64,000 bases of DNA from Halobellus rarus (GTDB lineage: Archaea; Halobacteriota; Halobacteria; Halobacteriales; Haloferacaceae), in assembly GCF_024494595.1 (NCBI RefSeq), contig NZ_JANHDI010000013.1, positions 62,001-126,000 of the forward strand, in the 5' to 3' direction. Made by a program: the position numbers and the translations under genes. A model generated the notes under the pieces. That model worked only from the letters and a program-made list of their open reading frames with translations. It was not told where the DNA came from and did not search any database. Of this stretch, positions 998-30,163 are shown in pieces. Numbering within the stretch: the stretch's first letter is position 1; each line of letters starts with the position of its first letter.

Positions 998-2878
998 ATG
1001 AGTGTCGACTCGAAGCGACGGATCGTCGGTGGCGGTGCGCTCTCGACGCTCGGAGCGTTACTCGCCACCGTCACGCTTTTCGACGTCTACGAAGATTTCG
1101 CGCTGCAGGGCGATCCGCTGGTTCTCACCCTCGTCGAGAACTCTCTGCCGCTGGTTCTCAATCTCGGACTCGTCGCCGCGGGCCTGCTCCTCGTCAGCGA
1201 CGACTCCGTCCCAGAGGAGTTCGTCACGCGCTCGACGGCGTGGAGCGTTCTCGGCGCGGTGTCGCTGTTCGGGATCACCGGCTGGGTGTACTACTTCCAG
1301 GTCGCACAGGGGCAGATCAAGCCGCACATTCTGTTCAGCCACGTCGTCTCGATGGGCGCCGTCGCGGGGCTCGCGGTCGGTTTTTACGACGGCCAGCGAC
1401 GCGAACGCGAGGAGCAAGTCGTGACCGAACGCGATAAGATGATGGCGCTGTTCGAGAACAGTTCCGACTGCATCGCCGAGATCGAGTTCGTCGACGACCG
1501 GCCGCTCGTGCGCGATGTCAACCCCGCCTTCTGTGAGACGTTCGGGCTCGATCTCGACGCTGTCCGGGGAAGATGCATCGACGACGTCATCGTCCCCAGC
1601 GAGGACGAAGGGATGGCAGGCGTGATCAGCGAGCGAGCGAACCGCGGCGACCAGTTCGAGATCGACGGCCTGACTCGGCGGACTGCCGGCGGCGAGGTCC
1701 GCGTGTTCCGGTTGCAGGCGATACCGCTCGACGCCACGTCCTGGGCCGCCGACGGGTACGCCGTCTACACGGACGTCACCGCCGAACACCGGTACGAGGA
1801 GCGGATGACCTCACTCCACGAGGCGACGCGGGAGCTGATGACTATCGGTTCGATCGAGGGGGTCGCGCGAACGGCCGTCGACGCCGCCGAGGCGATCCTC
1901 AAACTCGACTTTACCAGCATCCACCAGTACGACAGCGAAAGGGAGGCCCTCTGTCCGGTCGCGCACACCGAACGGATGGACGACCTGATCGGTGCACCAC
2001 CGACGATCCGTGCGGGCGAAGCCATCGCGTGGGAAGTCTTCGAGAGCGGGACGCCCCGCTACGTTGGTGATCTGAGTGCCGAACGCGGGGCGTACAACGA
2101 CGACTCGACGCTGGCGAGCGAACTGATCGTCCCGCTGAACGGGTTCGGCGTCCTGCTGATCGGTGCACAGAGCCCGCACGCGTTCGACGAGTCGGACTTC
2201 TCGCTCGCAAAGATCCTGGCCGCGAACGTCGAGGCCGCGATGGAACGCGCCGAACGCGAGGCGCGGCTCCAACAGCAGAACGAGCGGCTCGAGACGTTCA
2301 CCAGCATCGTCTCCCACGACCTCCGAAACCCGCTCTCGGTGGCCGATGGCTACCTCGAACTGGCCCGCGAGGGCGACGAGGCGGCGCTCGTACGAGTCGA
2401 GGACGCGCTCGACAGGATGGAGGAGTTGATCGCGAACCTCCTCGAACTCGCTCGCGAGGGCGCGTCGGTCGACGCGGTCCGTTCCGTGGATCTGGCGGCG
2501 GTCGCGCACGGTGCGTGGACGAGCACGGCGACGGCGGACGCCACGCTTCAGATCGACACCGCAGCGGAGATCGAGGCCGATCCGGACCGACTGCAGCAGT
2601 TGTTCGAGAACCTCTTTACGAACGCGGTCGAGCACGGCGGCGACGACGTCACCGTCCGCGTGACGTCGGCCGACTCGGGGTTCGCCGTCGAGGACGACGG
2701 CCCCGGAATCCCCGAGGAGGACCGAGAAGACGTCCTCGCACACGGGTACACGACCGACGCGGACGGGACCGGATTCGGACTGGCGATCGTCAACGAAATC
2801 GCCGGGGGACACGGGTGGCAGATGACCGTCGAATCCGGCCGATCCGGCGGCGCGAAGTTCGTCTTCGAGACCGAGTGA
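998..2878 (+). CDS. Membrane PAS-GAF sensor histidine kinase
   Basis: A 626-aa protein. About four hydrophobic segments lie in residues 8-130, followed by a PAS domain (about 145-265), a GAF domain (about 275-420) and a kinase core. The H-box SIVSHDLRNPL places the phospho-accepting His at 440. The ATPase domain shows the N-box (LFTNAVEHGG), G1 (DDGPGIPEED) and G2 (GTGFGLAIV) motifs. It would autophosphorylate on His in response to a membrane or intracellular signal; the ligand is unknown. The ATG at 998 lies about 30 nt after an AACGTTTTGA stretch that can act as TATA, consistent with a leaderless mRNA. The neighbouring receiver-PAS protein (1-936) may receive the phosphate. Confidence 0.93.
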   Translation: MSVDSKRRIVGGGALSTLGALLATVTLFDVYEDFALQGDPLVLTLVENSLPLVLNLGLVAAGLLLVSDDSVPEEFVTRSTAWSVLGAVSLFGITGWVYYFQVAQGQIKPHILFSHVVSMGAVAGLAVGFYDGQRREREEQVVTERDKMMALFENSSDCIAEIEFVDDRPLVRDVNPAFCETFGLDLDAVRGRCIDDVIVPSEDEGMAGVISERANRGDQFEIDGLTRRTAGGEVRVFRLQAIPLDATSWAADGYAVYTDVTAEHRYEERMTSLHEATRELMTIGSIEGVARTAVDAAEAILKLDFTSIHQYDSEREALCPVAHTERMDDLIGAPPTIRAGEAIAWEVFESGTPRYVGDLSAERGAYNDDSTLASELIVPLNGFGVLLIGAQSPHAFDESDFSLAKILAANVEAAMERAEREARLQQQNERLETFTSIVSHDLRNPLSVADGYLELAREGDEAALVRVEDALDRMEELIANLLELAREGASVDAVRSVDLAAVAHGAWTSTATADATLQIDTAAEIEADPDRLQQLFENLFTNAVEHGGDDVTVRVTSADSGFAVEDDGPGIPEEDREDVLAHGYTTDADGTGFGLAIVNEIAGGHGWQMTVESGRSGGAKFVFETE

Positions 2879-3079
2879 GGACGGCGACGCCCGTCCTCCT
2901 CGGGACCCCCCGTGGTACCGCCGCGGCGCTCTCACGACGATCCGCCACGGCGTCGCTCCCGGAGACGCCAATTCCGTCGAAAAACCACTTCGTCGATCGT
3001 CTAACCGCCAGTCGGAAAAATATGGAGTTATCCCGCTGGAGTGCACTCGACGAGGTAGACACCCTCACAGGAATCGATT

Positions 3080-4420
3080 ATGTCTGGAAAGTACGATCTC
3101 GTTATCGTCGGCGGCGGCATCAGCGGGGCATCGCTTCTGTACACCACTGCGAAGTTCACGGACATCGATTCGATCGCGCTGATCGAGAAGGAGTCCGAGA
3201 TCGCGGCGATCAACTCCCACCACACGAACAACTCACAGACGCTTCACTTCGGAGACATCGAGACGAACTACACCCTCGAGAAAGCCGAAGGCGTCAAGAC
3301 GGGCGCGGAACTGCTGGCGGGGTATCTGGAGAATCACGACCCCGACCGAGAGATGCACGCGAAGCGAAGCAAGATGGTGCTCGGCGTCGGCGGGGAGGAG
3401 GTCGACAAACTCGAACGCCGGTACCACGAGGAGGGCTTCGGCGACCTCTATCCGAAACTCGAACCGATCGGTCGCGATGAGATCGGCGAAATCGAGCCGA
3501 AGGTCGTCGAGGACCGCGATCCCGACGTAGAGATGCTCGCGTTGCAGACGCCGGACGGCTACGTCGTCGACTACGGCGAGACCGCGAAGTCGATGGTCGA
3601 GAATGCGCGCGAGGAGGCGAACGTCGACGTGTTCACCGACACGAAGGTCGAAGACGTCACGGAGAACACCGAAGGCTACACGCTCACGACCGGCCGTGGT
3701 CCGTTCGACTGCGAGGTCGCGGTCGTCGCCGCCGGCTCCCACAGCCTCCAGATCGCGAAGGAATTGGGCTACGGCGAGGATATGGTGTTGCTGCCGGTCG
3801 CGGGGAGCTTCTTCCTCGCCGACGATCTCCTGAACGGGAAGGTCTATACGCTGCAGATGAAGAAACTGCCGTTCGCGGCGGTCCACGGCGACGCCGACGT
3901 CCACGACGGGAGTATCACCCGCTTCGGGCCGACGGCGAAACTCGTCCCCGCACTGGAGCGCGGTCGCGTCTCGACGGTCAGTGATTTCCTCGACGTGTTC
4001 GGACTGAACGCCGCGTCTTTCCTCAGTTACGCCAATATCCTCGCCGATCGGATCCTCCTCCCGTACGTGCTCACCAACCTCCTCTACGACGTGCCGGAAC
4101 TCGGGCGGCGGGCGTTCCTCCCGGAGGTCCAGAAGGTCGTCCCGAGCGTCGAACTCGACGACATCGAGCGCGCGAAGGGTTACGGCGGCGTCCGACCGCA
4201 GATCGTCGACACGAGCGAGCGGTCCCTCGATATGGGCGAGGCGAAGATCGTCGGCGACGACATCATCTTCAACATCACGCCCTCGCCGGGAGCGTCGACG
4301 AGCCTGAAGAACGCGATGCGCGACACCGAGACGATTCTGGAGTTCTTCGAGGAGGACTACGAGTTCGACGAGGACGCCTTCCGCGCGGAGACGATCGAGA
4401 ACTTCCCACGCGGCGCGTAG
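3080..4420 (+). CDS. mqo: FAD-dependent malate:quinone oxidoreductase-like protein
   Basis: A 446-aa flavoprotein. The N-terminus has a Rossmann FAD motif (IVGGGISG, residues 8-15) with an acidic end of the second strand (LIEKE). The segment NNSQTLHFGDIETNYT and the C-terminal GVRPQIVDTSER and TPSPGAS motifs fit the malate:quinone oxidoreductase family, which oxidises malate to oxaloacetate and passes electrons to membrane quinone. No membrane span is visible, as expected for a peripheral enzyme. It stands alone between a histidine kinase and cspA. Other FAD oxidoreductases (2-hydroxyglutarate or glycerol-3-phosphate types) share the fold, so the substrate is inferred. Confidence 0.7.
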   Translation: MSGKYDLVIVGGGISGASLLYTTAKFTDIDSIALIEKESEIAAINSHHTNNSQTLHFGDIETNYTLEKAEGVKTGAELLAGYLENHDPDREMHAKRSKMVLGVGGEEVDKLERRYHEEGFGDLYPKLEPIGRDEIGEIEPKVVEDRDPDVEMLALQTPDGYVVDYGETAKSMVENAREEANVDVFTDTKVEDVTENTEGYTLTTGRGPFDCEVAVVAAGSHSLQIAKELGYGEDMVLLPVAGSFFLADDLLNGKVYTLQMKKLPFAAVHGDADVHDGSITRFGPTAKLVPALERGRVSTVSDFLDVFGLNAASFLSYANILADRILLPYVLTNLLYDVPELGRRAFLPEVQKVVPSVELDDIERAKGYGGVRPQIVDTSERSLDMGEAKIVGDDIIFNITPSPGASTSLKNAMRDTETILEFFEEDYEFDEDAFRAETIENFPRGA

Positions 4421-23535: not shown

Positions 23536-24228
23536 TTACTCGTCTGGGTCGACGACGAGTTGGTCGGCGAGCGCCTCGTCGGTCACCGTCCGCTCCCAGT
23601 CGCGCCCGGCCGCGCCGCCCACCTCGGCGTGGATCTTCTCCGCGAGCAGGTTCACGGCCACGCTGTTCGCGCCCTCGGGGACGATGAGGTCGGCGTGTTT
23701 CTTCGTGGGTTCGACGAACTGCTCGTGCATCGGCTTGACCGTCGAGAGGTACTGCTCGATGACGCCTTCGAGGTCGCGACCGCGTTCGATGACGTCCCGC
23801 TGAATGCGTCGGATGATCCGGACGTCGGCGTCGGTCTCGACGTAGAGCCGGAGGTCCAGCATCTCGTTGATCTGCTCGTCGGAGAGCGCGAAGATCCCCT
23901 CGAGGATGACCACGTCCGTGGGTTCGACCCGGACGGTCTCGTCGGTCCGGTTGTGGATCTCGAAGTCGTAGGTCGGCATCTCGATGGGCCGGCCTTCCAG
24001 AAGCGTCGAGAGTTGCGTCCGCAGGAGTTCCCACTCGAACGCGGAGGGGTGGTCGTAGTTCACGTCCTCGCGCTCTTCGAGCGCCAGGTGGCTCTGGTCT
24101 TCGTAGTAGTTGTCTATCGGAATCCGCGCGACGGAGTCGCCGACGTTCTGCGTGATGAGACGCGCGATCGTCGTCTTCCCTGCACCGGTGCCGCCCGCGA
24201 TCCCGATGACGAACGAGGGGATGCTCAT
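23536..24228 (-). CDS. udk: Uridine kinase
   Basis: A 230-aa P-loop kinase. Walker A is GGTGAGKTTIA near residue 11, followed by IPIDNYYED, the uridine-binding NYDHPSAFEW segment, and VVILEGIFAL. It phosphorylates uridine or cytidine to the monophosphate for pyrimidine salvage. The start at 24228 (MSIPSFVIG) fits the family; a 43-codon upstream extension has no family resemblance. It probably forms a unit with the PurM-like gene downstream. Confidence 0.95.
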   Translation of the reverse strand: MSIPSFVIGIAGGTGAGKTTIARLITQNVGDSVARIPIDNYYEDQSHLALEEREDVNYDHPSAFEWELLRTQLSTLLEGRPIEMPTYDFEIHNRTDETVRVEPTDVVILEGIFALSDEQINEMLDLRLYVETDADVRIIRRIQRDVIERGRDLEGVIEQYLSTVKPMHEQFVEPTKKHADLIVPEGANSVAVNLLAEKIHAEVGGAAGRDWERTVTDEALADQLVVDPDE

Positions 24229-24500
24229 TTCCAGAGAGAGTCGTCGCCGCGCGCTTGAGCGTGGCGGTTCGTCGAACGGACCGCCTGGCTTCGGTGCCCG
24301 ATCACACTCACCACGCAGTGCCTGGATGGCGCGACGTCCTGTCGTAGCAGACCACAACGTGCCAGAACGTCGAGAGGATATGGACGCCTAACGCGGTACA
24401 CACGATACAGAAACGGTGCCTCACGCGAGGGTGAGCCATCGAGTGACGTCTATCGTTGGTCATCGGGTATTTAGCTCCGATCAGTGTCGCAACGAATACA

Positions 24501-24530: not shown

Positions 24531-25946
24531 ATGGCACGTGATATCGTACGGCGCAGGTTTTTGAAACGGGTCGGTGCAGCGGGAGCGATCGGTGCGACTG
24601 GACTGGCCGGCTGTATCGGGAGCCCCGACGACGGCGGCGACGGTGGCGGTGACAGCGGCGACGGCGACAGCGGCGGAGACAGCGGCGGAGACAGCGGTGG
24701 CGACAGCGACAGTGGCGACGACGGCGGCAGTTCCGGCGACGGGCCGGACGGTCTCGTGGTCATCGGCTACCCCGAGAGTGGGATCCAGCTGTTCCGCGAC
24801 TACTACAGCCAGTCCGACGGGAGCGAGGAGATCGTCGTCCCCGACGGACTCAGAGACGGCGCGATGCCGGGGCAGGTCGGCAACGACATGGAGAACGTGA
24901 CCGGGACCGCGCCGGCGGCGGGCGGTCCGAACCAAGAGGCGTTCAACTCACTGTTCCAGGACGAGTACGGCTCCTCGCCCGGCGTGTTCACCTCCCAGTC
25001 GTACGACTCGGTCGCGATCCAACTGCTCGCGAACGCGGCCGCGGGCGAGAACTCCGGGACCGCGATCCGCGATCAGATGCGCCGGGTCGCCAACCCCGGC
25101 GGGATGGAGGTCACGCCCGAGAACCTCGTAGAGGGCATCGAGGCGGCGGCTAACGGCGACGACGTCAACTACCAGGGCGCGTCGTCGGCGACGAACTTCA
25201 ACGAGGCCGGCGACCCGGCCTCGGCGGCGTACGCCATCTGGGAGTTCAACGCCGACGAGGGCGCCGCGGAGAACGTCGAGGTACAGAACTTCGAGGGCGA
25301 GAACCCCGACGGGGCGGGTCCGGCAGCGGACAGCGGTCCCGGCGGCAGCGACCGCGAGATGTCGGTCGGCATCCTCCTCCCGGAGACCGGCGACCTCGCC
25401 TCGGTCGGCGGCCCGATGATCCAGGCCGCACAGCTCCCGGTGCAGCAGGTCAACGACGCCGGCCCGGCGGGACTCTCGGTCAACGCACAGATCGAAGACA
25501 GCCAGACGTCGCCGAGCGCGGGGACCGCCGCGGCCGAATCGCTCGTGAGCGCGGGCGTCCCCAGCGTCTGCGGGTCGGCGTCCTCGGGCGTGAACGTGCC
25601 CGTCTCACAGGAGGTGTTCATTCCGAACGAGGTCGTCGGCTGCTCGCCGTCGTCGACGGCGCTGTCGGTGACGAACCTCGACGACAACGACTACATCTTC
25701 CGGACGGCTCCCTCGGACATCCTGCAGGGGCGCGTGATGGCGCAGGTGATGTCCGAGCGGCTCGGCGTCGACAACGTCGCGACGCTGTACGTCAACAACG
25801 ACTACGGCCAACAGCTCTCCGAGCGGTTCAGCAGCGTGTTCGAGGACACGTTCGACGGCGAAGTCTACCGACAGGTCGCGTTCAACATCGGCGAGTCCTC
25901 GTACTCGTCGGTCATCAGCAACGCGCTGTCGGCGCCGGACAGCTAG
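24531..25946 (+). CDS. Branched-chain amino-acid ABC binding protein with circularly permuted lobes
   Basis: A 471-aa Tat lipoprotein. RRRFLK at 7-12 and GLAGC (Cys 28) form the Tat signal and lipobox, followed by a Gly/Asp/Ser linker to residue 72. Normally a type I binding protein begins with the lobe-1 motif SVGILLPETGDLASVGG and reaches the lobe-2 motif VVIGYPESGIQLFRDYY midway. Here lobe 2 comes first (about 73-257) and lobe 1 follows (about 277-471). The protein stops at SNALSAPDS, exactly where the lobe-2 start would continue. Both halves look intact. The CCGGAC hexamer occurs at both breakpoints (24744-24749 and 25936-25941). It faces the livHMGF operon tail to tail. Confidence 0.85.
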   Translation: MARDIVRRRFLKRVGAAGAIGATGLAGCIGSPDDGGDGGGDSGDGDSGGDSGGDSGGDSDSGDDGGSSGDGPDGLVVIGYPESGIQLFRDYYSQSDGSEEIVVPDGLRDGAMPGQVGNDMENVTGTAPAAGGPNQEAFNSLFQDEYGSSPGVFTSQSYDSVAIQLLANAAAGENSGTAIRDQMRRVANPGGMEVTPENLVEGIEAAANGDDVNYQGASSATNFNEAGDPASAAYAIWEFNADEGAAENVEVQNFEGENPDGAGPAADSGPGGSDREMSVGILLPETGDLASVGGPMIQAAQLPVQQVNDAGPAGLSVNAQIEDSQTSPSAGTAAAESLVSAGVPSVCGSASSGVNVPVSQEVFIPNEVVGCSPSSTALSVTNLDDNDYIFRTAPSDILQGRVMAQVMSERLGVDNVATLYVNNDYGQQLSERFSSVFEDTFDGEVYRQVAFNIGESSYSSVISNALSAPDS

Positions 25947-26060
25947 GCAGAGAGCCGTCGTCTCGATCCCCGTTTCTTTGGCGGAGAAGGCGCCGCGAGC
26001 CTCGCGTCGGATCCGGTTTCATCCGCCGTGAGACCCGCGTCGAAGTCGGTTCTATCCGCC
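25947..26060. other. Convergent intergenic region with a near-duplicate of the livF end
   Basis: A short T run (CCGTTTCTTTGG, from about 25969) may end the binding-protein transcript. A 25-bp block at 26036-26060, covering the last codons and stop of livF, is repeated with five mismatches at 26003-26027. Confidence 0.5.
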
Positions 26061-26834
26061 CAGGAAGTCCCGACGGACCTGCTCGTCGGTCAGGAGCGCG
26101 TCGCCGTCGTCCATGTACCGGTTCCGACCGTTCGCGAGGACGTAGCCGCGGTCGCAGCGCCGCAGCGCCTCCTTGGCGTTCTGTTCCACCATCAGAACGG
26201 CCGTTCCGTCGTCGTTGATCGCGTCGATGCGGTCGAACATATCGTCGACGAGGTCCGGTGCGAGACCCGCAGAGGGTTCGTCGAGCAGGAGCAACGAGGG
26301 ATCGAGCATCAGCGCGCGACCCATCGCGAGCATCTGCTGTTGGCCGCCGGACATCGTCCCGGCCTTCTGCGACTGCCGCTCTTCGAGGATCGGGAACCGC
26401 TCGAACACGGCGTCGAGGGCGTCCTGTGGGACCGAATCGAGGATGTACGCGCCCATCTCCAGGTTCTCCCGGACCGTCAGGGAGGCAAACACGTTGTCGT
26501 TCTGGGGCACGTAACCGATGCCCTCGTGGATGATCTCCTCGGGGCGGCGTCCAGTGATGTCTTCGCCCTCGAAGATCACCGTCCCGCCCATGTGGCTCGT
26601 GAGGCCGAAGACGGATTTCATCACCGTCGATTTGCCGGCCCCGTTCGGCCCGACGATCGTGACGTACTCGCCGTCGGCGACGTCTAAGTCCACGTCGGTC
26701 AGGATCTGGAGGTCGCCGTAGCCGGCGTCGAGGTCACGGACCTCTAGGAGCGCCTGGTCCTCACGGTCGGGAATCGTCTCCTTGGAGACGTCGGCGTCGT
26801 ACGCCGGCGGATCGCGCTCGGTGTCTGTGCTCAT
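26052..26834 (-). CDS. livF: Branched-chain amino-acid ABC transporter ATPase LivF
   Basis: A 260-aa ABC ATPase. Walker A GPNGAGKST, Q-loop YVPQNDNVF, signature MSGGQQQML and Walker B LLLLDEPSAGL are all intact, and YVPQ..VFASLTVRENL is LivF-like. It powers import of Leu/Ile/Val or related substrates together with LivG. The ATG at 26834 overlaps the livG stop by 4 bp (ATGA), so translation is coupled. A 20-codon acidic extension precedes the ATPase fold. A longer in-frame reading reaching 27572 is an out-of-frame shadow of livG. Confidence 0.95.
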   Translation of the reverse strand: MSTDTERDPPAYDADVSKETIPDREDQALLEVRDLDAGYGDLQILTDVDLDVADGEYVTIVGPNGAGKSTVMKSVFGLTSHMGGTVIFEGEDITGRRPEEIIHEGIGYVPQNDNVFASLTVRENLEMGAYILDSVPQDALDAVFERFPILEERQSQKAGTMSGGQQQMLAMGRALMLDPSLLLLDEPSAGLAPDLVDDMFDRIDAINDDGTAVLMVEQNAKEALRRCDRGYVLANGRNRYMDDGDALLTDEQVRRDFLGG

Positions 26835-27733
26835 ACGTTCCCCCCGAGGTATGCCTCGATGACCTCCTCGTTCGCCTGTATCTCGTCGGGGGATCCCTCG
26901 GTCAGGACCTGCCCCTGATGGAGCACGATGACGCGCTCGCAGTTTTCCATAATCAGATCCATATCGTGTTCGACGAGCAGGAACGTGTAGCCCTGCTCGC
27001 GGAGTTCGTGGACGTGTTCGAGCAGCCGCTTCTCCAGCGACGGATTGACGCCCGCGAACGGCTCGTCCAAGAGGAGCATGTCCGGATCGGTGAGGAGCGC
27101 CCGCGCCAGCTCCAGCAGCTTCCGCTGTCCGCCCGAGAGGTTCCCGGCGTACTCGTCGGCGATGTGGTCGATGTCGAAGAACTCGATCACGTCCCAGACG
27201 CGTTCGAGGAGTTCCTCCTCCTGTTCGACGACGTCGCCGCGGAAACCGGGAGTGACGGACCGCCAGAGTGCCTCCCCGCGCTGGTCCTTCGGGGCCAACA
27301 TCAGGTTCTCCAAGACCGTCATCTCCTGGAGTTCCCGGGCGATCTGAAACGTCCGGACGAGCCCTCTGTTCGCGATCGCGTGCGGTTTCTGCCCGGTGAT
27401 GTCCTCGCCGTCGAACGTCACGGTCCCCGCGTCGGGGCGCAGCATCCCGGTGATGAGGTTGAACGTCGTCGACTTCCCCGCGCCGTTGGGGCCGATGAGG
27501 CCGGTGAGGGTCCCGCGTTCCACCCGGAAGGACGCGTCGTCGACGGCGGTGATCCCACCGAAGGTCTTGCACAGCCCCTCCACTTGGAGCGGGTACTCCT
27601 CGTCGACGTTCGGCCCGCCGGAGCCGAGATCGAGCCCGTTCGAGGCGGCGTCGGTCCTGCCGGGGACGTCCCGGCCGCCGTTCGATCCACCAGCGTGGTC
27701 CGATCCGACGTTCGTGGCGTCCGGATCACTCAT
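26831..27733 (-). CDS. livG: Branched-chain amino-acid ABC transporter ATPase LivG
   Basis: A 300-aa ABC ATPase with Walker A GPNGAGKSTTF, signature LSGGQRKLLELAR, Walker B DMLLLDEPFAGVNP and the His-switch VEHDMDL. The first 45 residues are a Gly/Asn/Asp-rich extension. The ATG at 27733 overlaps the end of livM by 8 bp; a GTG four codons earlier is possible. It is the third gene of the livHMGF operon and pairs with LivF to drive transport. Confidence 0.95.
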   Translation of the reverse strand: MSDPDATNVGSDHAGGSNGGRDVPGRTDAASNGLDLGSGGPNVDEEYPLQVEGLCKTFGGITAVDDASFRVERGTLTGLIGPNGAGKSTTFNLITGMLRPDAGTVTFDGEDITGQKPHAIANRGLVRTFQIARELQEMTVLENLMLAPKDQRGEALWRSVTPGFRGDVVEQEEELLERVWDVIEFFDIDHIADEYAGNLSGGQRKLLELARALLTDPDMLLLDEPFAGVNPSLEKRLLEHVHELREQGYTFLLVEHDMDLIMENCERVIVLHQGQVLTEGSPDEIQANEEVIEAYLGGNV

Positions 27734-29060
27734 CGGAACCACCACCGGCGTCGCCGCCGTCGGTCTCCGCGGACGCGCTCGCTCGCGAGCCAGTCAGCGG
27801 GATGCCCGCGGCCGTCTCCTTGCGGTGTCCGAGCATCCCCTCCGGCCGGTTGTGCATCAGCCAGATCAGGGCGAGACCCATAAAGACGAGCTGGAGCTGT
27901 CGGACGCTGTCGATCGTGTAGAAGAACAGCGGCGCGGGATCGAAGTTGGAGATGAGCGGCGAGACGGCCGGGCCGAACCCCGAGGGCGCGTCGGCGTTCG
28001 GGATGACCGTGTCGATGAGGTTCTTCAGGTAGCGCGGCCCCTGATAGAGCAGCGCGGCGAAGACCGCCCCGCCGAGAACGCTGCCCGTGTTGGAGCCAGC
28101 GCCGCCGATGATGAGCGCGATCCACACGAAGAAGGTGATCCGCGGCCGGAAGAAGTTCGGCGTGACCGCGCCGCTTGTCATCAGCCAGAGGATGCCCGCC
28201 AGCCCCATCAGCGCACACCCGAGCATGAACGCCTTGATCTTGAACCGGTTCGTGTTCTTCCCCAGCGAATTGGCGGCGTCCTCGTCCTCGCGGATCGCCT
28301 TCAGGACGCGCCCGAACGGCGACTCGCCGGTCCGCTTGAGCAGCCAGAAGTAGACGGCGACGAAGCCGAGCAGCACCGCGCCGTAGACGAGGCCGTCGAC
28401 GACCGGCTTTGGATTGTTCGGGATGATGACCTCGAAGACCGAGACGAACCCGAGGTACGCGTCCCACAGGCCGAAGGACTGGAAGAACGCCTCCAGCGGG
28501 TTGGTGAAGTCGAGGATGAGCCCCGATCCGCCGCCGAAGCCGACGCGCTCGCCGAACAGTCGGAACTGCTGGAGTTCCCCCGAGAGGAACGAGAAGCGGA
28601 CGATCTCCGACATCGCGATCGTGACGATGGCGAGGTAGTCCGCGCGTAACCGGAGCGCCGGCAAGGCGATCACCGCCCCGAGAAGCGCCGCGGCGACCAT
28701 CCCGGCGACGATGCCGACGATGAGCGGCAATCCGAGACCGCCGACCTGGGCCGCGCCGCCCGACTCGTACAGCGGCTTCGAGACCAGCGCCATCACGTAA
28801 ATCCCGACCGCCATGAACCCGACGATGCCGATGTTGAAGAGCCCCGTGTACCCCCATTGAAGGTTGAGGGCCAGCGCGAGCATCGCGAAGACGCCGATGT
28901 AGAAGGTCAACACGCCGATCGTGTTCAGTTGGCCGCGAACGGAGTAGCCGAGGCCGACGCCGGCCAACACGTACGCGGCGTAGATGACGAGGAGCACGGC
29001 CACGATGAGCCCGGCGTCGCCACCGGGAATCCGCTCGGCGACGTCGTCGCGGACGCTCAT
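27726..29060 (-). CDS. livM: Branched-chain amino-acid ABC transporter permease LivM
   Basis: A 444-aa permease with about ten membrane spans. ALNLQWGYTGLFNIGIVGFM and LKAIREDEDAANSLGKN are the LivM hallmark loop and EAA-like segment that contacts the ATPases. Its start (MSVRDDVAER) overlaps the livH stop by 4 bp (ATGA). The C-terminal 35 residues are a Ser/Ala/Gly/Asp-rich cytoplasmic tail. A longer reading upstream lies within livH and was rejected. Confidence 0.94.
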   Translation of the reverse strand: MSVRDDVAERIPGGDAGLIVAVLLVIYAAYVLAGVGLGYSVRGQLNTIGVLTFYIGVFAMLALALNLQWGYTGLFNIGIVGFMAVGIYVMALVSKPLYESGGAAQVGGLGLPLIVGIVAGMVAAALLGAVIALPALRLRADYLAIVTIAMSEIVRFSFLSGELQQFRLFGERVGFGGGSGLILDFTNPLEAFFQSFGLWDAYLGFVSVFEVIIPNNPKPVVDGLVYGAVLLGFVAVYFWLLKRTGESPFGRVLKAIREDEDAANSLGKNTNRFKIKAFMLGCALMGLAGILWLMTSGAVTPNFFRPRITFFVWIALIIGGAGSNTGSVLGGAVFAALLYQGPRYLKNLIDTVIPNADAPSGFGPAVSPLISNFDPAPLFFYTIDSVRQLQLVFMGLALIWLMHNRPEGMLGHRKETAAGIPLTGSRASASAETDGGDAGGGSDE

Positions 29061-30163
29061 GCCGTCGACCTCCCCGAGAACAGTCCCTCGGGTTTCACCA
29101 GGAGGAGGACGATCATCACGAGGAACGCCGCCGCGCGGGCGAACGCCGAGGGAATCCAGACGATCGAGACCGACGCCGTCAGCCCGATCGCGAGGCCGCC
29201 GACGATGGCCCCGTAGATCGATCCGATGCCGCCGAGGATGACCGCCGCGAAGATCAAGAGTAAGAGCAGCCAGCCGTCGTTGAATCCGAGCGTGCCCTTC
29301 CAGAGGATGAACATATAGCCCGCGACGCCCGTCAGGCCGCCGCCGATCACCCACACCGCGCGGACGACCCGCTCGGTCGGGATGCCCGTGATCTGCGCGA
29401 GGTCCTCGTTGTCGGCCATCGCCCGCATCGCCTTCCCGAGTTTGGTCAGTTGCAGGAGGAGGTGGACGCCGAGCATCAGGGCACCGGCGACGACGACGAG
29501 CGCGACGTCGTGGGCGTTGATGCGGACCGCGCCGTCGACGAGATAGAGTGCCATCGCCGGCGGCTGCGACGTCGTGCCGCGGACGTCCGACCCGAAGACG
29601 AACTGCATCAGATACCGGAGCGCGAACGCGACGCCGACGCTCGTGATGAGAAGCGTGATCCCGTCGGCGTCACGGATCGGGCGGAACGTCGTCCGGTCGA
29701 CGAGAAGCGCCAGCGCGACCGTGGCGATCCCGGCGACGAGAATACCGGCGACGACCGCGACGGGAGTCGTCGTGACCCCGATGCCGAGCGTCCCTCCGAA
29801 GACCGATCCGCCCGCGCCGACGAGCAACAGCGCCCCGACGTCGGCGCGGCCGAACCCCGCGACGAGGTACGTCGTCGCCCACCCGGAGAACGCCCCCGCG
29901 GTGATGTAGTCCCCGTGCGCGAAGTTCGCGAAGTTCAGAATGCTGTACGTCATAGAGAGCCCGATGCCCGCGAGACCGACCACCAGCCCGCGCATCAGTC
30001 CGTCCCACACGAGCGACCCGATCCCGCTGAACGAGTGCCGTCCGGTCGCGAGTCCCGCGACCAGATCGAACAGCAAGACGGCCCCGACGAGCGCCACCAG
30101 AACGGAGCCGGGCCGCGTGATCGCGAACTGACGTCCGCGTGTGTATGTCTCGGCGATACCCAT
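29057..30163 (-). CDS. livH: Branched-chain amino-acid ABC transporter permease LivH
   Basis: A 368-aa permease with about eight to nine spans. GLSMTYSILNFANFAHGDYI near residue 70 and LGKAMRAMADNEDLAQITGI (EAA loop) are typical of LivH. It is the first gene of the operon. A CTTATCATC element lies about 40 nt upstream as a candidate TATA box. The operon lacks its own binding protein; the only one in the window is the permuted gene converging on livF. Confidence 0.94.
   Translation of the reverse strand: MGIAETYTRGRQFAITRPGSVLVALVGAVLLFDLVAGLATGRHSFSGIGSLVWDGLMRGLVVGLAGIGLSMTYSILNFANFAHGDYITAGAFSGWATTYLVAGFGRADVGALLLVGAGGSVFGGTLGIGVTTTPVAVVAGILVAGIATVALALLVDRTTFRPIRDADGITLLITSVGVAFALRYLMQFVFGSDVRGTTSQPPAMALYLVDGAVRINAHDVALVVVAGALMLGVHLLLQLTKLGKAMRAMADNEDLAQITGIPTERVVRAVWVIGGGLTGVAGYMFILWKGTLGFNDGWLLLLLIFAAVILGGIGSIYGAIVGGLAIGLTASVSIVWIPSAFARAAAFLVMIVLLLVKPEGLFSGRSTA

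Follow-up and report, generated by a model that had tools for sequence, protein, structure and literature searches.

Natural circular permutation by duplication has been described for DNA methyltransferases and for saposin/swaposin, and in the DNA methyltransferases several arrangements exist within one family, with known intermediates (PMC3320104). Those proteins are not transporters, unlike the haloarchaeal protein analyzed here, whose arrangements replace each other at one locus and for which no intermediate was found. The closest precedent is TpMglB-2 (Tp0684) of Treponema pallidum, a 'Type Ic' ligand-binding protein which was shown to bind D-glucose and to change conformation (PMC4990184). 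Like the haloarchaeal protein, it is a type I (cluster B) lipoprotein of an ABC importer that is permuted in nature and has a new connection between its old ends. TpMglB-2 is bacterial and belongs to a sugar-binding family, whereas the haloarchaeal protein belongs to an amino-acid family; moreover, the available text on TpMglB-2 describes neither a canonical orthologue at the same locus nor recurrence (PMC4990184); in haloarchaea the former was found and the latter is probable. A search of the open-access literature turned up no permuted binding protein described from haloarchaea. New here are a permuted member of the amino-acid family in archaea, two different cuts, a locus shared with canonical orthologues, and the probable recurrence.

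The gene, its predicted parts and its neighbours are placed as follows in the window (the whole stretch of Halobellus rarus DNA that was analyzed, 64,000 nucleotides).

23536 to 24357, minus strand: uridine-kinase-like gene (UDK)
24531 to 25946, plus strand: gene of a circularly permuted LivJ-type substrate-binding lipoprotein (SBP), 471 aa
24531 to 24614, plus strand: predicted Tat signal peptide, which ends at lipobox Cys28 (RRRFLK ... GLAGC)
24615 to 24743, plus strand: low-complexity Gly/Asp/Ser spacer, from the lipid anchor to the folded domain
24744 to 25295, plus strand: canonical C-terminal half (canonical residues ~193 to the end), now N-terminal
25296 to 25355, plus strand: linker GENPDGAGPAADSGPGGSDR, bridging the former C- and N-termini (20 residues; 17-22 residues family-wide)
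25356 to 25943, plus strand: canonical N-terminal half (canonical residues ~1-191), now C-terminal
26052 to 26834, minus strand: livF, ABC transporter ATPase, convergent with the binding-protein gene
26831 to 27745, minus strand: livG, ABC transporter ATPase
27726 to 29060, minus strand: livM, permease
29057 to 30163, minus strand: livH, permease

Sequence comparisons confirmed that the product of the gene at 24531-25946 is a LivJ-type (type I) binding protein in the order C-half, linker, N-half. The PF13458 profile matched it with 103.5 bits (cut-off 31.7) in two stretches, the best of which placed protein residues 278-467 on profile positions 3-188. The match was not co-linear from N- to C-terminus, as the halves were exchanged, and the product is, by its alignment, a homologous but permuted PF13458 variant and not a canonical member. 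In PDB relatives, residues 274-468 aligned to chain positions 5-203, that is, to the N-terminal half of LivJ-type chains, and in 4gnr residues 134-188 aligned to chain positions 263-315. The NF011933 model (PRK15404, high-affinity branched-chain amino acid SBP) scored 63.2 bits against a curated cut-off of 477 and matched the N-half only. No co-linear alignment with LivJ-type proteins was obtained until the halves were re-joined in the canonical order, upon which one continuous match to 4gnr appeared (3-311 on 9-315, E = 5.5e-18). Two homologous segments are exchanged and an unpermuted homologue exists, as in circular permutation. An earlier note on this DNA had proposed the permuted order, the linker and the breakpoints, and had stated that joining the end to the start restores the usual order; the PF13458 and PDB matches bear this out.

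The same note regarded an assembly error as the main alternative. We searched 17 genomes of the genus and found a full-length colinear orthologue in 14 besides the genome of origin (81-96% identity); the two genomes that had none were the lowest in completeness. Across 391 Halobacteria genomes there were at least about 150 full-length or near-full-length colinear matches among the matches listed (down to E = 1.5e-107), with identity down to about 50%. Among the genera with the permuted gene are Halobellus, Haloferax, Halogeometricum, Halorubrum, Haloplanus, Halorussus, Natrialba, Natronorubrum and Haladaptatus. The comparison with related genomes, which the note had suggested as a check, came out in favor of the permuted order. 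Since many independent assemblies, single-contig genomes among them, have the same order, an assembly error is excluded. The permuted gene is under purifying selection (dN/dS 0.06-0.26 against seven relatives), and with dN/dS well under 1 we consider the reading of this gene as an error or a pseudogene of the Halobellus rarus genome to have practically no chance of being right.

At L026 (G016 C1:1456937-1458034) the permuted gene recurs ~11 kb away from its intact copy; this second copy breaks off past query residue 368, where the sequence is masked (N). Binding-protein genes of four loci (L084, L086, L102, L110) lose frame partway, by frameshift or decay. In L275:1076-3364 (G078 C2:2080000-2085500) a permuted gene of the G2 type (see below) is split by what looks like a ~1.4 kb insertion, which carries a transposase-like ORF at 2198-3364; the remainder of the gene's N-half is located on the far side of it.

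AlphaFold modelled the permuted protein confidently, with pLDDT 90.4 and pTM 0.86, and the canonical Halogranum orthologue with pLDDT 83.1 and pTM 0.83. The predicted secondary-structure elements of the permuted protein were the canonical list, rotated; structure prediction was another check named in the earlier note. Foldseek, which aligns in chain order, matched the permuted model to LivJ-type structures over ~190 columns (TM 0.35-0.44) and the canonical orthologue's model over 376-389 columns (best TM about 0.8). When compared by order of elements and by alignment of halves, the permuted model had the two-lobed alpha/beta fold.

In the LIV-binding protein, lobe 1 consists of residues about 1-120 and 250-330, and lobe 2 of residues about 121-249 and 331 to the end. 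In the canonical model the lobe-2 cut follows helix 183-190 and precedes strand 196-200, at about canonical residue 192, in a numbering close to that of LivJ. The new N-terminal half begins with the strand of lobe 2 that contains the GYP tyrosine, and the new C-terminal half stops after helix SSVISNALS. The main cut is a helix-to-strand loop inside lobe 2, neither a lobe boundary nor the hinge. Because it falls inside lobe 2, each half holds parts of both lobes; the earlier description of permuted lobes, with a breakpoint near a hinge crossover, does not hold. The motifs SPSST, NDYG, GYP and DG, which we take to be the amino-acid-site motifs of LivJ-type proteins (an assignment made also from alignments with PDB chains), were invariant across the permuted and canonical sets when aligned with the PDB chains, and suggest that the residues of an alpha-amino-acid ligand site are present. 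Compared with LivJ/LivK-type proteins (PF13458; 1z15, 2lbp, 4gnr, 4n0q, 3ipc), both halves are homologous, with the same elements, ligand-site motifs and livFGMH partners, but the haloarchaeal chain is rotated by about half, its old termini are linked, and the linker is expected to add a fourth lobe crossover to the usual three. TpMglB-2 is cut after the third N-lobe strand, whereas the haloarchaeal proteins are cut in the lobe-2 loop or after strand 1/helix 1 of lobe 1 and do not belong to 'Type Ic' (PMC4990184).

The SBP gene adjoins livF, livG, livM and livH, the arrangement of an ABC importer. Halogranum, Halobium, Halorientalis, Natronomonas aquatica and Halolamina carry genes with the normal order, each half being about 50-62% identical; these genes occupy the same position at the side of livFGMH and have the same Tat-lipobox-spacer module. 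Permuted and canonical genes both face convergent livFGMH, often with the same uridine-kinase-like gene upstream, and are therefore positional orthologues. As UDK adjoins the binding-protein gene in both permuted and canonical relatives, the locus as such is orthologous. Several loci (L104, L106, L107, L109 (Halobaculum-type), L208 and L213) have a canonical gene with UDK and no livFGMH nearby, that is, an orphan binding protein. In L243 livHMGF lies downstream of a canonical gene in the same direction, in contrast to the convergent order elsewhere. The livG of Haloferax prahovense (L037:9392-10253) is apparently in two frames, owing to a frameshift or a sequencing error.

By analogy with ordinary LivJ, the permuted protein would be exported by the Tat pathway, anchored by its lipid, close its two lobes on an alpha-amino acid and hand it over to LivHM/LivFG. 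It is very likely a working, naturally permuted SBP of a branched-chain/alpha-amino-acid ABC importer which was permuted in place via duplication, at a locus that was re-cut more than once.

For the phylogenetic analysis of the SBP genes, the halves were put in canonical order and closer canonical outgroups were added. Most trees were built by quick search, and the groups received their names once a tree had been inspected. An impression from the first tree, that the permuted form was ancestral, came from rooting it with a single, very distant paralogue (L065, branch 7.9) and was reversed once the closer canonical outgroups were used. The permuted genes split into a main clade, which includes the Halobellus rarus gene, a group G2 (families f1/f3), a group G3 (f3, g29) and a single gene, L191, so that the lobe-2-cut genes occupy three, perhaps four, places among the canonical genes. 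In the careful SBP tree G2 grouped with canonical genes at 100/100. The tree of LivH, M, G and F (1341 columns), which represents independent data, repeated this grouping: the main clade stood beside the canonical loci of Halogranum/Halobium, G2 among canonical loci, and G3 with L191.

We estimate that the lobe-2 cut had at least two, probably three, independent origins. The main rival is a single origin, after which the SBP gene alone was transferred to the same locus elsewhere, with gene conversion or misplaced long branches mimicking recurrence. A permuted SBP gene that moved alone and was partly converted by resident copies could imitate recurrence, and the cut position is identical within about two residues in all groups. 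Further, the AU test on SBP alone did not reject a single permuted clade (p = 0.139), and the linker of L191 (SDSIPGSSSDR) is much like that of the main clade. The linkers of G2 (ELSDEDLNATAADPVGVDSFE) and G3 (DIPQPEPSASGSGSDR), however, are both unlike the main linker, G2 stands with canonical genes at 100/100 in the careful SBP tree, and its neighbours among the canonical genes are the same set in the trees of the N-half, the C-half and the transporter. On LivHMGF the single permuted clade was rejected (p = 9e-7). With SBP and LivHMGF combined, rejection extended to all permuted genes (p = 1e-138), main+G2 (p = 6e-58) and main+G3+G4 (p = 6.6e-4); main+L191 was not rejected (p = 0.10). On this evidence we think a single origin with transfer unlikely, though it deserves to be taken seriously.

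A second arrangement was observed in L095 and in three genomes (G390, on one contig, G382 and G317). We had considered L095 as a canonical gene that had reverted, which was ruled out, as it carries a second cut instead. The order in these genes is signal and spacer, N-half from residue ~35-39, C-half, main-type linker, and the first 34-39 residues of the N-half; the cut site lies after strand 1/helix 1 of lobe 1. The junction between N-half and C-half is unbroken and of native length (AL-xxx-PD), as in canonical genes, and the genes adjoin livFGMH. They were nested within the main permuted clade at two to three places, and a single lobe-1-cut clade was rejected in the AU test on SBP alone (p = 8e-59). 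A lobe-2-cut clade without the lobe-1-cut genes was rejected as well (p = 1e-5), in a test which, as labelled, also parts G2, G3 and L191 from the main clade. Because they share the main-type linker, the lobe-1-cut genes would descend from permuted ancestors, and some permuted proteins, at the least, seem to have been permuted anew.

Duplication and trimming is the most likely route to the permutation. A canonical gene would have been permuted in place, beginning with a tandem duplication. In-frame fusion of the two copies would have turned the spacer of the second copy into the linker, and the N-half of the first copy and the C-half of the second would then have been lost. The linker looks like the spacer of a second copy, since the (S)DR(T/E) before the N-half also precedes the canonical domain. 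Tandem pairs of permuted genes occur in the Haladaptatus-type loci L078, L132 and L133. No fused double-length gene or partly trimmed intermediate was present in the loci examined, tandem permuted pairs only, and for that reason the duplication step is one that we infer. Open frames of 924, 1156 and 1241 aa, candidates for fused intermediates, had just an upstream open frame and one copy of each half. In each tandem pair one gene has a Tat-like start but lacks the lipobox Cys and nearly all of the spacer (MRHKIDRRTYLRGMGG...GSLQQDGGPDMLT); the lipobox is also missing in L085 and L086.

Tandem duplication followed by deletion had been proposed in the earlier note as well, in part from the hexamer CCGGAC at both breakpoints. 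The route still stands as the likeliest, based on the spacer-like linker and the tandem permuted copies, but the hexamer lends it no support. It is indeed present at both breakpoints, the second copy at 25935-25940 and not at 25936-25941. We counted 105 occurrences in the 64 kb (both strands), three of them on the coding strand of the ORF. Both copies are Pro-Asp codons in a common spelling, and most permuted relatives have no Pro-Asp at the C-terminus, a feature seen only on the Halobellus/Haloferax side. The hexamer is uninformative on the mechanism.

The two cuts could also have come from a long-lived fused double (N-half, C-half, linker, N-half, C-half), trimmed independently many times. 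Such a gene would suit the shared linker type of the two forms and the exactly canonical length of the N-half/C-half junction (AL-xxx-PD) in the lobe-1-cut form. Joining the C- and N-terminus of a lobe-2-cut protein, however, would rebuild the loop at the right length too, and a double-length gene was absent from every locus examined; we consider a persistent double improbable. Fission into two half-genes, later fused in the opposite order, has a general precedent in circular permutation (PMC3320104). Yet separate half-genes were not seen, the linker lengths and the (S)DR(T/E) before the domain match the former spacer, and only the first half of the permuted protein has an export signal, whereas separate halves would need two. 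We hold this route to be very unlikely. The Tat-lipobox-spacer module is found unaltered ahead of the permuted domain, and the spacer of relatives varies from 9 to 84 aa in permuted and from 7 to 87 aa in canonical genes. This loose length in both forms fits an anchor position that hardly mattered, and an export module able to combine with many loops. With such a modular signal and a long disordered spacer, many surface loops could have served as a new N-terminus; the same lobe-2 loop would have been cut in two lineages at the least, probably in three, and certain permuted genes would later have been re-permuted to lobe 1. We lean slightly towards a broader reading, in which one orthologous locus of Halobacteria may be a hot spot of permutation, with the lobe-2 loop cut at least three times and lobe-1 re-permutation at least twice more, enabled by the modular Tat-lipobox signal and the long, repetitive, disordered spacer.

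Because natural permutations tend to be regarded as one-time, ancient changes that separate distant homologues, their origin and cause are seldom open to test. At this locus the canonical, permuted and re-permuted orthologues share about 50-75% identity and adjoin the same transporter. The suggestion made for TpMglB-2 that permutation is an adaptation to tethering is touched by this finding, as the canonical haloarchaeal orthologues are tethered lipoproteins too (PMC4990184). The locus is a natural laboratory for the re-cutting of protein chains.
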